A stretch of DNA of 64,000 nucleotides from Magnetospirillum fulvum MGU-K5 (lineage in GTDB: Bacteria > Pseudomonadota > Alphaproteobacteria > Rhodospirillales > Magnetospirillaceae): contig NZ_AQPH01000010.1 in the NCBI RefSeq assembly GCF_000442515.1, positions 1 to 64,000 on the forward strand, read 5' to 3'. The translations under genes and the position numbers were made by a program. Below are positions 22,732 through 27,050 of this stretch, in pieces; position 1 is the stretch's first letter, and each line of letters begins with the position of its first letter. Under the pieces are notes generated by a model, which saw only the letters and a program-made list of their open reading frames with translations, did no database searches and had not been told where the DNA came from.

Positions 22732-24411
22732 TCAGGCCCGAACGCTGTCGAGGAACGTTCCGACTTCCTTGTTGAGACGCTGTGACTGCGTTTCCAACTC
22801 GTGCGACGCCGTCAGAACCCCGTTCGATGTCTCGCCCACCTCGCCGACGGCCGAGGCCAATTGGGTCAGATAATCGGTGACCTGACGGGTTCCTTCCGAC
22901 GCCTGCTGGATGTTACGCGAGATTTCGGCGGTCGCGGCGTGCTGCTCCTCGACGGCGGCTGCGATACCGGCCCCGATCTCGTCGATCCGACCGATGGTGC
23001 CGCCGATAATGCTAATCGCGCCCACCGCCTCGGTGGTGGCGGCCTGGACCGCACCGATCTGGGCCCCGATTTCCTCGGTCGCCCGCGCGGTCTGGTTGGC
23101 GAGATGTTTGACCTCGTTGGCGACGACGGCAAAGCCCTTACCCGCCTCACCGGCCCGAGCCGCCTCGATGGTGGCATTCAGCGCCAGCAAATTGGTCTGG
23201 GCCGCGATGTCGTTGATCAGACCGACGACATCGCCGATCTTGCCCGCCGCTTCCGCCAGTCCTTTAACCAAGTGATCGGTCCGTTGCGCCTCGGATACCG
23301 CCTCGGCCGACATTGTCGCCGATTGCTGGACCTGACGGCTGATTTCGCGGATCGACGCCGACAATTCCTCTGATGCCGCGGCAACTGTCTGGACGTTGGT
23401 TGACGCCTCTTCCGCCGCAGCGGCAACCGAGGTGGCTTGCGACGAGGTCTGGCGGGCGACATCGGTCAGACATTCCGCCGCACTTTTCATGCTTCCTGCC
23501 GAGGCGGCGATAACGTCGGAAACCTGCTTGACGCTGCTTTCGAACGAATCCGCCATCCGCATTGCGGAAGCCCGACGTTCTTCCTCGGCACGCAATTTCG
23601 ACATTTCCTGCTCGCGGCGCAATGATGCCGCTTCGCGGGCGGCATCGCGCAAGGTGCGGATCGAAACCGCTAGCGAACCGATTTCATCGGTACGGTCGAT
23701 CTCGGTGACGACAGTATCGTAATCCTGATTGGCGAGGCGGTTGGTGATCGTGGACAGCCGCTTTAACGCATTGGCGATGTGACGAGCCACACCAAGCGCC
23801 AGAGCCCCGCACAGCAGGGTAACCAGTAAGACCAGACCGGCGAAATGGAGTGCCTTATCCCAGAAAATTTCCTGGATATCGTCGATATAAATCCCGGTGC
23901 CCATCATCCAGCCCCAGGGCGCGAACAGATTGGCGTAAGACAATTTGTCGATGGCCACATCCGAGCCGACGCGGGGGAACTGATAAAACAGCGATCCGCC
24001 ACCGGCCTGGGCCAGTTCGATCAGGCGGCGAATGATAAAGATGCCGTTAGAGTCCTTTGTTTCCAAAGCGCTTTGGCCTTCGCGCTCGGGATGCCCGGGA
24101 ATCATTACTCCCGTTCCATCTACGGCATAGATGAAAAAGTATTCGTCCTTATCATAGCGAAGGTCGCGCAAAATGTTGCGAGTCAGTCTTTGTGCCTCGG
24201 CTTGATCGAATTCTCCCTTTAAAGATCTGTTGTAGTTGTCTTGCGCAATCCCCTGGGCAACTTCAACTAAGTTGTGCAACTTAGCGACACGATCCTCGAC
24301 CATGATCGAGCGTAAGAAGAACATCGCTAAGGCAGCAACCACAACAAAGCCGAAGATACTGCCCGCAACGACGATCAGCAACTTTCCGGAAATTCCCATT
24401 TTAGGGATCAT
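22732..24411 (-). CDS. Methyl-accepting chemotaxis protein with single Cache domain
   Basis: A transmembrane chemoreceptor of 559 residues: TM1 (about 9-33), a periplasmic Cache domain containing [20 protein letters not shown] and [20 protein letters not shown]2 (about 187-210), a HAMP domain ([14 protein letters not shown] onward) and the cytoplasmic signalling hairpin with tip [20 protein letters not shown]. It ends FLDSVRA with no CheR-tethering pentapeptide. ATG 24411 has GGAG upstream. It is a close paralogue of the receptor at 25374-27050, with the exporter gene between them on the opposite strand. The ligand is unknown; this Cache type often binds small carboxylates. Confidence 0.93.
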
Positions 24412-24550
24412 GTCACATCTCCACCCATAACCAACAGGTGCAATCAATCCGAAGACATATGCACCCCTATGCTAATTTTCCAGATTGTTCCAAAGAAATA
24501 CCTGAACCGCAAACGAGCTTGCGTATAAGAAGCCATGCATTTACGGTGTG

Positions 24551-24670
24551 CGCCGTCATTGGGGAGTAGCCTCTCTCGGCCTGATCCGAGAGGGATGCGT
24601 CAACAGACTTGAGCTGCACAGCTCATGGCGCATTCGGCAAGAGTCGCTTGGCGAGACCTTTGGCTTGGCG
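24551..24670 (+). promoter_or_regulatory. yybP-ykoY (manganese) riboswitch
   Basis: The sequence carries both conserved loop strings of the yybP-ykoY class: TTGGGGAGTAGCC (24559-24571) and GGCGAGACCTTTGGC (about 24650-24664), plus GCGTCAACA between them. The closing stem can form from CGCC (24551-24554) and GGCG (24667-24670), and the arm CTCTCTCGG/CCGAGAGGG forms a hairpin. It lies 71-190 bp upstream of a UPF0016/GDT1-type exporter gene, the class of gene this riboswitch is known to control in response to Mn2+. A covariance search was not run. Confidence 0.85.
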
Positions 24671-24680
24671 TCCGACACCA

Positions 24681-24730
24681 GGGGGGTGGGCGGGGCGCAA
24701 AGCCATTGGTTTTCTATCCGCCCAGCCCCC
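24681..24730 (+). promoter_or_regulatory. Candidate riboswitch expression platform (hairpin abutting the ribosome site)
   Basis: GGGGGGTGGGCGG (24681-24693) can pair with CCGCCCAGCCCCC (24718-24730) at 12 of 13 positions. The right arm ends directly before AAAGG (24731-24735), the ribosome-binding site of the exporter gene. Formation or melting of this hairpin would alter access to the site, suggesting translational control. Inference from pairing only. Confidence 0.55.
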
Positions 24731-24740
24731 AAAGGTTATT

Positions 24741-25325
24741 ATGGACGCGCTGTTTATTTCCGCCGCGATTGTGGCGATCGCCGAGATCGGCGACAAAACT
24801 CAATTGCTGGCTTTGGTTCTTGCCGCTCGTTTCCGACGGCCGATTCCGATCATTCTGGGCATCCTGGTCGCGACCCTGGCCAATCATGGCCTTGCCGCCT
24901 GGGCCGGAACTGCGGTCGCCGACTGGCTGGGAGGAGAGACGATGCGCTGGGCGCTGGGTCTGTCGTTTCTGGCGATGGCGGTCTGGATTCTGGTGCCTGA
25001 CAAGATCGACGATGACGCTCCTGGCATTGGGGAACGGTTTGGCCCCTTCCTCGCCACCCTGGTGGCGTTCTTCCTGGTCGAGATCGGCGACAAGACCCAG
25101 ATCGCGACAGTGGCCCTGGCGGCGCGCTTCGATGACCTGCTGCTGGTGACCCTGGGCACTACGCTGGGGATGATGGCCGCCAATGTCCCGGCCGTTTTGC
25201 TGGGCGAAGCGGCGGCAACCCGGATTCCGTTGCGACTGGTTCACATCGTTGCAGCGATCCTGTTTGCTATCATGGGTATTCTGACGCTGAGCGAGGTCGG
25301 GGCCGATCTGGTCCGTCACCTGTAA
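24741..25325 (+). CDS. UPF0016/GDT1-family Mn2+ (or Ca2+) exporter
   Basis: A small inner-membrane cation transporter of 194 residues with six predicted helices in two homologous halves. Each half has the family motif E-x-G-D-(K/R)-(T/S): AEIGDKTQ near residue 16 and VEIGDKTQ near residue 116. Homologues (MneA, MntX-like, TMEM165/Gdt1) move Mn2+ or Ca2+ out of the cytoplasm. ATG 24741 follows AAAGG and opens the first membrane helix; upstream in-frame codons lie in the riboswitch. A yybP-ykoY riboswitch upstream argues for Mn2+ export. It sits between two chemoreceptor genes on the other strand. Confidence 0.9.
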   Translation: MDALFISAAIVAIAEIGDKTQLLALVLAARFRRPIPIILGILVATLANHGLAAWAGTAVADWLGGETMRWALGLSFLAMAVWILVPDKIDDDAPGIGERFGPFLATLVAFFLVEIGDKTQIATVALAARFDDLLLVTLGTTLGMMAANVPAVLLGEAAATRIPLRLVHIVAAILFAIMGILTLSEVGADLVRHL

Positions 25326-25337
25326 TCGGCGAGGGAT

Positions 25338-25367
25338 GAGGCTGATATCGTTTTGGATATCAGCCTC
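25338..25367. terminator. Bidirectional hairpin between the exporter and chemoreceptor genes
   Basis: A perfect 12-bp stem (GAGGCTGATATC with GATATCAGCCTC) and a GTTTTG loop lie between the convergent stop codons at 25325 and 25374. T-runs are short, so efficiency is uncertain, but the symmetry and position fit a shared terminator. Confidence 0.7.
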
Positions 25368-25373
25368 TTATCG

Positions 25374-27050
25374 TCAGGCTCTAATGCTGTGGAGGAACGA
25401 ACCGACTTCCTTGTCCAATCGTTTCGATTGTTCGGTGAGGGTGTTCGAGGCCGTCAGAACGCCACCCGATGTCGTCTCGACATCGGCGATCGCCCCCGCC
25501 AGCGCGGCAAGGTAATCGGTCACCTGACGGGTTCCGGCAGAGGCCTGCTGAATGTTGTGCGAAATCTCGGTGGTAGCGGAATGTTGCTGTTCCACCGCTG
25601 CCGCAATCGCGGCCCCAATCCCATTGATTCGCCCAATTGTTCCGCCAATATTACGGATCGCCACCACCGCTTCGGACGTGGCGTTCTGGACCGCGTTGAT
25701 CTGGGTCGCGATATCCTCGGTCGCCTTGGCGGTCTGGTTGGCGAGATTCTTAACCTCACCGGCGACGACGGCAAAACCTTTGCCCGCTTCTCCCGCCCGC
25801 GCCGCCTCGATTGTCGCGTTCAAGGCCAGCAGGTTGGTCTGCGAAGCGATATCGTTGATCAGATTGACCACCTCGCCGATCCGCCCGACCGCATCGGCCA
25901 GACCTTGAACCAGATGATCGGACCGTCCTGCCTCGGCCACCGCATCCGAGGACATCGTTGCCGAATCCCGAACCTGGCGACTGATTTCCTGAATTGATGC
26001 TGACAATTGCTCCGAGGCGGCCGCCACGGTCTGCACCTTGGATGACGCTTGGTCAGCCGCCGCCGCGACTTCGCCGGCTTGGGCCGAGGTCTGATTTGCC
26101 ACCCCGGTCAGGCTCTGGGCGGCATCGCGCATGCTATGAGCTGACGTGGCGATAACGTCGGTGACCTGTTTGACGCTGCGTTCGAAGGAATCCGCCATCG
26201 CCAGGGCAGCCCGACGGTGTTCGTCTTCGACCTGCCGCTTGACTTGTTCCTGAGCATCGCGCAGAGACTGGGCTTCACGGGCGATGTCGCGCAGGGATCG
26301 GATCGAGTTTGCCAGGGAGCCGATCTCATCGCCGCGCTCGGTCTCGGTCACCTCGGTCGCGTAATTCTGGTTGGCCAACTGAGTGGTGGCTTCGGTCAAT
26401 CGCTTCAGCGGCAGGGCAATGTGGCGGGCGACCGCCATCACCAGGATCGTGGTCAGCAAGGTGATCAGCAGAACGATTCCGGAGAATTTCAGCGCGGCGG
26501 AGCGGAATTCGGCTTCAATGTCGTCGATGGCGACGGCAGAGCCGATCATCCAGCCCCAGGGGGCGAAGAACTGGGCGTATGAGCCTTTTGGAACCGGGAT
26601 TTCCGAGCCGGGGCGGGTGAATTGATAGAACACGGCACCACCGCCCGCCTTGGCGACCTCGATCATCCGGGCGATGAAGGGCAGGCCGTTGATATCCCTG
26701 ATCCCGAGCGCGTTTTTACCTTCGCGCTCGATCCGGCCGGGGCTGAGCATGCAGGTCCCATCCTCGGCATAGATGAACAGGTATTCTCCCCCGTCATAAC
26801 GAACGGCGCGCAACTGATCGCGGACCCGCTTTTGCGCCTCGTCCTGCGAGAATTCGCCTCTGACAGCGCGGTCGTATTCTGCCTGCGTCAGGGTGCGGGC
26901 GATGTCGGTGACACTGCGCAGTTTGGCAATGCGATCCGCTATCATCGATTCATGGAGGAAGACCATCCCTAGACTCGCGACCAGAATGAACCCGACGACG
27001 CTGGCCGCGACAACGATCAGCATTTTTCCCGAAAGACCCAACCTCGGCAC
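25374..27050 (-). CDS. Methyl-accepting chemotaxis protein with single Cache domain (paralogue)
   Basis: A 558-residue chemoreceptor laid out like its neighbour: TM1 (about 9-33), a Cache domain with [21 protein letters not shown] and [20 protein letters not shown]2, HAMP ([13 protein letters not shown]) and a signalling hairpin with [20 protein letters not shown]. It ends FLHSIRA without a pentapeptide tether. The two receptors match almost residue for residue in the signalling tip but differ more in the sensor, suggesting duplication followed by ligand divergence. Its start lies 156 bp from the ssb terminator region and it appears to be a single-gene unit. Confidence 0.93.

Follow-up and report, generated by a model that had tools for sequence, protein, structure and literature searches.

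In the 64,000-nucleotide stretch of Magnetospirillum fulvum MGU-K5 DNA analyzed here (the window), a putative manganese exporter gene is preceded by a leader in which a GC-rich hairpin adjoins the ribosome-binding site. The original prediction, made from the letters of the sequence, recognized a manganese aptamer upstream of this hairpin and took the hairpin as a gate on translation. The locus raises the question of how the aptamer could communicate with the hairpin and whether the hairpin belongs to the form of the leader that silences the gene or to the form that allows its expression.

Aptamer and exporter gene

The leader is assigned to the yybP-ykoY class of manganese riboswitches (RF00080) and, by analogy with that class, is expected to bind Mn2+. 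The covariance-model search proposed with the original prediction returned a forward-strand match at 24549-24723 with a score of 74.3 bits (E = 1.5e-17; gathering score, 45), which covers model positions 1 to 177, the full model length, and is the only RF00080 match found in the whole 3.77-Mb genome. The class assignment is upheld by this match, and both loop strings on which it had been based are present (GGGGAGUAGCC at 24561-24571 and GCGUCAACAgACUUG at 24597-24611). In addition, the 221-nt leader folds with a z score of -3.71 relative to dinucleotide shuffles, none of 200 shuffles being equally stable. The switch adds one more member to a well-known riboswitch class and occupies the position usual for that class, before a gene of the manganese exporter type. 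It shares aptamer sequence, fold, and location with RF00080, and the downstream structures described below, hairpin A and helix B (the A/B platform), lie outside the Rfam model. The 3' part of the RF00080 match is aligned mostly without convincing pairs downstream of the P3 arm and is no model of the A/B platform at this leader.

The end of the aptamer was placed with the published Xanthomonas oryzae (X. oryzae) aptamer as a guide (PMC6754395, in the part of the report drawn on here). On the pairing derived in this way, the aptamer proper is predicted to end at 24664, and the expression platform to occupy 24665-24740. By its ACA-N-ACU context, A24605 is the candidate counterpart of A48, the Mn-sensing adenosine of the X. 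oryzae aptamer. The two aptamers are also alike in the Mn-stabilized switch helix P1.1; they differ in that the competitor discussed in the available text of the X. oryzae report is a terminator. As expected of the class, the P1.1 switch helix has a downstream competitor, here hairpin A. The string CTTGGCRAGACC, located 3' of the region paired in Rfam, was considered as an undescribed conserved motif and dropped, since comparison with the same portion of PMC6754395 led to its being read as the end of the aptamer, where the 3' strands of P1.2 and L1 enter P1.1.

The exporter with two EIGDKT motifs that had been read downstream of the aptamer was confirmed by the PF01169 profile, the motifs being the two ExGDK(S/T) repeats of the GDT1/UPF0016 family. 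Judging from this family, the product of 24741-25325 is probably a manganese exporter. The genome contains two GDT1 matches, both in this frame, and none elsewhere; the best score in a genome search with the MntP profile was 20.6 bits, below the cut-off of 24.4. Two similar long frames on the minus strand, 22732-24447 and 25374-27050, flank the GDT1 gene; their translations have the look of methyl-accepting chemotaxis proteins. Inspection by eye also revealed a perfect inverted repeat of 12 bp at 25338-25367 (GAGGCTGATATC-GTTTTG-GATATCAGCCTC), in the gap that separates the GDT1 gene from the gene converging on it. It is perhaps a shared terminator; a terminator scan requiring a T run did not list it.

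Promoter-like boxes recognized by eye would place the transcription start at about 24552-24555, a few bases from the P1.1 5' strand. At the promoter position of 24 related leaders, CTTGC was found in 15, TTG in 22, and TA[TC]GGT in 14, and a sigma-70 scan detected no promoter at 24519-24547. Nucleotide 1 of the Escherichia coli alx leader, in the mapped numbering, is also the first base of UGCAAAGG.

Table 1. Features of the leader and its gene, with positions in the window
Feature	Position	Strand	Evidence or remark
Predicted promoter: -35 TTGCGT (24519-24524), 17-nt spacer, -10 TACGGT (24542-24547)	24519..24547	+	By eye
Manganese aptamer proper (predicted), closed by P1.1	24555..24664	+	RF00080, 74.3 bits; P1.1 pairing on alignment A1
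P1.1 5' strand, GUCAUUGG	24555..24562	+	Partner strand, 24657-24664; two U.U mismatches within the helix
L1/P1.2 5' consensus, GGGGAGUAGCC	24561..24571	+	RF00080 alignment; invariant in 24 rows of A1, the string GGGAGTA itself having been used to collect leaders
L3 consensus, GCGUCAACAGACUUGA	24597..24612	+	RF00080 alignment
P1.2 3' (GGC) and L1 3' (GAGA), together GGCGAGA	24650..24656	+	Conservation among leaders, noticed before G[AG]C[AG]AGAC became a requirement for collecting them
Hairpin A 5' arm	24656..24673	+	Pairs with 24693-24710
P1.1 3' strand, CCUUUGGC (exchange strand)	24657..24664	+	Alternative partners: 24555-24562, 24702-24709, 24729-24735
Helix B 5' arm, GGGGGGUGGGCGG, within the A loop	24681..24693	+	Covariation
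Hairpin A 3' arm	24693..24710	+	Includes the P1.1 5' mimic GCCAUUGGU (24702-24710)
Helix B 3' arm, CCGCCCAGCCCCC, C-rich, adjoining the Shine-Dalgarno sequence	24718..24730	+	Covariation; placement in 102 leaders
CCAAAGGU around the Shine-Dalgarno sequence	24729..24736	+	Perfect 8-nt complement of 24656-24663 (ACCUUUGG)
Shine-Dalgarno sequence, AAAGG	24731..24735	+	Anti-SD duplex, -3.4 kcal/mol
GDT1/UPF0016 exporter (putative), 194 aa, ATG start	24741..25325	+	PF01169, 149 bits in two stretches

Hairpin A and helix B in proteobacterial leaders

Leaders for comparison were drawn from searches at E ≤ 0.001 that, with the M. fulvum genome included, found RF00080 in 22 of 60 near relatives and, at the level of order, class, and phylum, in 59 of 297, 57 of 385, and 129 of 398 genomes, respectively; the sets overlap, stricter filters were applied, and the best-scoring loci, at most 30 per search, were taken. 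From the 169 loci so listed, 130 leaders were obtained by a sequence pattern and an open frame, 128 of them distinct. The pattern requires G[AG]C[AG]AGAC, and the sample is therefore one of leaders carrying that string. In total, 114 leaders had a start codon at a usable distance, and 102 remained after L035, L057, L106, and L136 were removed by hand (motif or start misassigned) together with L108, L110, L144, L150, L159, L161, L163, and L167, in which the distance from hairpin A to the start codon exceeds 45 nt. Related leaders within the sample are not independent, and both A and B were first seen in the same leaders that were used for the tests, for which shuffles and tail swaps served as controls.

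The six pairs of P1.1 are formed in 97.9% of cells in the MAFFT alignment of 24 leaders (A1). The P1.1 3' strand can also enter hairpin A, whose 3' arm, GCCAUUGG, resembles the P1.1 5' strand; this likeness of the mimic amounts to 6.0 of 10 letters over the 102 leaders, versus 4.7 in shuffled sequences. Twelve pairs of hairpin A (24656-24670 with 24696-24710) were tested. On A1, 78.9% of cells were paired, and covariation was 0.196, versus 0.143 in shuffles, of which 1 in 500 was as high; pairs changed on both sides numbered 6 versus 4.0, a value reached by 31 of 500 shuffles. In 21 other leaders of the beta/gamma type, 94.2% were paired, with covariation of 0.170 versus 0.098 (0 of 500 shuffles as high). 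Hairpin A, which the original prediction missed, competes with P1.1 and is the link between the platform and the aptamer.

Helix B, the GC hairpin by the ribosome site described in the original prediction, lies exactly where it had been placed, with 12 of 13 pairs between 24681-24693 and 24718-24730 and a single G.G mismatch, and it is conserved. On A1, 91.0% of its cells were paired, and covariation was 0.234 versus 0.170 (0 of 500 shuffles as high). Cells changed on both sides numbered 15, versus 4.4 in shuffles (0 of 500 as high); these changes are confined to 2 pairs, which is not above the shuffled value of 2.1. The beta/gamma alignment gave a weak result for helix B, with 64.6% of cells paired as aligned and 77.4% one column over, which indicates that MAFFT lost the register of B, and it was not counted as support.

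Three definitions of helix B were used across the larger sample. Under the first, hairpin A was free to take all pairable bases, which left B undefined in many leaders and weak in others (median z, -1.05; z < -2 in 12 of 114). Restriction of A to the P1.1 3' strand and the next bases, adopted after that result, gave a median z of -2.1 relative to dinucleotide shuffles, with z < -2 in 59 of 114 leaders. The third is a gapless score for the best pairing of the A loop with the stretch upstream of the start codon, which averaged 27.1 in the 102 leaders versus 17.4 with shuffled tails. Helix B surpassed the best length-matched aptamer window (windows taken every 4 nt) in 92 of 102 leaders, and a leader's own tail ranked in the best 5% relative to the tails of other leaders in 26 of 102. 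It ends a median of 12 nt before the start codon (quartiles, 10 to 14 nt; 102 leaders), and its end position has a spread of 4.1 nt, versus 7.0 nt in shuffles. Where the Shine-Dalgarno (SD) sequence is clear, helix B ends about 1 nt before it; among these 64 leaders, the end lies -1 to +5 nt from the SD sequence in 50 and overlaps it by at least 2 nt in 14. Helix B is thus a positioned element rather than an accident.

Hairpin A and helix B are interleaved: the A loop contains the 5' arm of B, and the 3' arm of B follows A. Coexistence of full A and full B as a pseudoknot was considered and rejected, because the median gap of 1 nt from the A 3' arm to the B pairing (10th to 90th percentile, 0 to 6 nt; 114 leaders) is too short to span a helix of at least 12 pairs. 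A partial A/B pseudoknot is possible. From the sequences compared, the platform appears to be conserved among the proteobacterial leaders examined.

Fold energetics, precedents, and the direction of the switch

In nested folding of whole leaders, a model that leaves manganese binding energy, tertiary structure, and pseudoknots outside, A ensembles lay below P1.1 ensembles in 97 of 102 leaders with nothing else imposed (median, 9.6 kcal/mol) and below B ensembles in 82 of 102. Once P1.1 was imposed, B dominated in 72 of 102. A ligand that stabilizes P1.1 should therefore shift most leaders from A to B. The M. fulvum leader is exceptional in that P1.1 already lies below A (-105.7 versus -102.7). 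Folding of a somewhat longer stretch with nothing imposed gave B as the lowest state (-112.0, versus -104.2 for A), and B is favored even without P1.1. Since P1.1 and B both lie below A here, A could win only kinetically, during transcription, as it is made earlier than the 3' arm of B.

The sign of the switch is left unsettled by nested folding alone. Mean openness of the SD zone over the 102 leaders was 0.37 in A, 0.39 in P1.1, and 0.38 in P1.1 with B. Relative to the A state, formation of P1.1 opened the SD sequence further in 19 of 102 leaders and closed it further in 36. When the B 3' arm was masked, SD openness increased by more than 0.1 in 31 of these leaders and decreased in 18. When the P1.1 3' strand was blocked, SD openness increased in 8 and decreased in 30 of 114. 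In the M. fulvum leader, the state with P1.1 and B (-107.3 without manganese binding energy) is predicted to leave the SD sequence 0.61 and the start codon 0.40 unpaired, and the form with B makes no mean difference to the SD sequence over the 102 leaders.

In this leader, the P1.1 3' region is also complementary to the SD sequence, a feature missed in the original prediction. The z score of this pairing is -4.8, and 48 of 200,000 shuffles of this tail contain the complement, which recurs in the related leader L010. The combined state of this anti-SD helix and B has an energy of -109.1, with the SD sequence 0.00 unpaired. Across the 102 leaders, the median z for such pairing is -0.08, with only 9 below -2, and the P1.1 3' strand was rejected as a general anti-SD element; its anti-SD role is retained as a local supplement for this leader and L010.

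The direction of the switch can be approached through characterized leaders. The alx leader of E. coli has been probed in the laboratory and is treated in that study as a pH-responsive element (PRE) controlled by pausing (PMC3874183, in the sections drawn on here). Its inactive form holds hairpin C and its active form stem C/D. In the K-12 sequence with the numbering of that report, which was anchored on A131 and agrees with K-12 at all 16 lettered positions tested (the anchor among them), hairpin C corresponds to hairpin A in 8 of 8 pairs and stem C/D to helix B in 9 of 11. Like hairpin A, hairpin C takes the P1.1 3' strand, and stem C/D pairs the loop of C with a downstream strand as B does, giving the order A5', B5', A3', B3'; the M. 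fulvum leader is laid out in the same way, its P1.1 3' strand forming part of a hairpin whose loop can pair with a strand closer to the ribosome site. The mutation G134A, which alters a base of A, is reported to yield the active form almost exclusively. Unlike the leader studied here, alx has an extra hairpin D with a terminator and a different gene (alx, not GDT1), and its B equivalent, which overlaps A, is at a greater distance from the start codon.

E. coli mntP, the subject of PMC11647493 and PMC9603457 (in their available portions), is reported in the former to be induced by manganese. Its leader has the same aptamer end and a long, clear hairpin A, together with a short B whose end lies upstream of the start codon by 12 nt and of the SD sequence by 1 nt. 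It differs from the M. fulvum leader in that its B has 7 pairs and a score of 17, versus the shuffled-tail mean of 17.4, its gene encodes MntP rather than GDT1, and a large insert lies within the A loop. In Vibrio parahaemolyticus (V. parahaemolyticus), mneA, a UPF0016 family gene with a predicted yybP-ykoY riboswitch upstream, is reported to be induced by manganese (PMC13274385, in the part available).

The reading that we favor, at somewhat better than even confidence, is a manganese ON-switch of the yybP-ykoY class that works by exchange of one strand, with helix B as part of the ON state. Binding of manganese would close P1.1 (24555-24562 with 24657-24664) and so bar hairpin A; helix B would then form, ending just before the SD sequence, which would stay open for synthesis of the GDT1 exporter. 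Without manganese, the freed P1.1 3' strand would pair with its mimic at 24702-24709 in hairpin A, excluding B, and expression would drop. Alternatively, in this lineage, 24656-24663 may pair with 24729-24736 with B nested inside, which would hide the SD sequence and lower expression as well. Helix B is placed in the ON form because it mostly stops before the SD sequence and because of the alx layout and the manganese induction of mntP and mneA; manganese binding, the sign, and the readout, whether through ribosome access, Rho termination, or both, would follow by analogy with such systems. Counting against this reading are the position of the M. fulvum leader among the few with P1.1 already below A, the lineage-specific nature of the anti-SD helix, and an mntP helix B that is no better than shuffles.

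Ribosome access is plausibly the simplest readout, with a Rho gate as a serious alternative or partner. Under such a gate, hairpin A without manganese would leave the C-rich strand 24711-24730 single-stranded for Rho loading, and helix B would hide that strand when manganese is present; we entertain this only tentatively as the main account, and it may act in combination with an effect on the ribosome. In 84 of 102 leaders, C outnumbers G in the strand from A to position -9 (C, 0.41; G, 0.26), and in M. fulvum strikingly so, although this richness may simply reflect a G-poor stretch upstream of the SD sequence, and the length exposed has a median of only about 20 nt (102 leaders). In the part of the mntP study drawn on here (PMC11647493), manganese abolished Rho termination during in vitro transcription and, in cells with Rho inhibited, added little or nothing to an mntP reporter, whose level was comparable to that with inhibition alone; direct inhibition of Rho binding is one of two routes named by its authors. 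However, the Rho control shown for E. coli mntP would extend to the M. fulvum leader by analogy, and RNA sequencing in V. parahaemolyticus is reported to give no coverage drop at the predicted riboswitch (PMC13274385, available part).

The view of the original prediction, in which helix B itself keeps the gene off by occluding the ribosome site until it is opened by manganese, is unlikely. Helix B adjoins the SD sequence, and the minimum-energy fold extends it by pairing ACC (24677-24679) with GGU (24734-24736) and pairs 24668-24674 with 24742-24748 around the start codon. The predominantly lowered SD openness after blocking of the P1.1 3' strand also agrees with this view. However, P1.1 and B do not compete, imposed P1.1 favoring B in most leaders; of the 64 leaders whose SD sequence is clear, 50 have a B that stops at or before it; and the alx equivalent of B sits in the active form (PMC3874183, in the sections drawn on here). 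Control at the ribosome site, as originally proposed, remains plausible, whereas a lone hairpin gate is disfavored by these same points. That helix B is a constitutive or chance hairpin with no tie to the aptamer is very improbable: the region is GC-rich and B is the lowest state here with or without P1.1, but its position is conserved, it shows covariation, and it is carried by leaders before GDT1, MntP, and Na_Ca_ex genes. Least credible of all is a manganese OFF-switch in which manganese makes B and B represses, as nested thermodynamics read plainly would have it, since repression of an exporter by its own substrate makes little sense and both the induction of mntP and mneA and the alx precedent, in the parts of those reports available, speak against it.

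Spread and meaning of the platform

The strand-exchange ON-switch favored above would employ a platform that precedes exporters of several families. Among ten chosen downstream proteins that were scanned, four matched GDT1 (L165, L162, L166, and L168), three matched Mntp (L156, L132, and L103), and three matched Na_Ca_ex (PF01699; L169, L150, and L124). The L162 protein also matched TauE above the cut-off, and L150 lies outside the 102 leaders, with A 71 nt from the start codon. The riboswitches upstream of the three Na_Ca_ex genes suggest that these exchangers are manganese or manganese/calcium exporters. In L081 and L034, which lie upstream of GDT1 genes, the 3' half of the aptamer is kept by eye and GGGAGTAG was not found within 450 nt; these are perhaps degenerate or variant aptamers. 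One genome (G691) contains two equal-scoring manganese riboswitches about 20 kb apart on contig C2 (152205-152377 and 172457-172629) and a third on another contig.

More broadly, Proteobacteria may use a single conserved platform before unrelated exporters (GDT1, MntP, and Na/Ca exchanger-like proteins), in which the P1.1 3' strand is exchanged three ways, with its aptamer partner, with the mimic of that partner, or locally with the SD sequence, and an interleaved helix B ends about 1 nt before the SD sequence, gating ribosome entry and Rho loading. We regard this generalization as a conjecture with less than an even chance of holding. The open-access literature searched contained no description of such a platform; the founding 2015 work lies outside that scope and may describe it. 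One worked example of the platform, alx, is already known.

The switch itself is of a textbook class in its usual place, and the interest may lie in the platform. The comparison suggests that the competing hairpins of alx are the same device as in about 100 other manganese leaders. If this is true, manganese riboswitches that lack an obvious terminator could be brought under one testable rule of action, and the reported influence of manganese on Rho termination at mntP would have a structural explanation.
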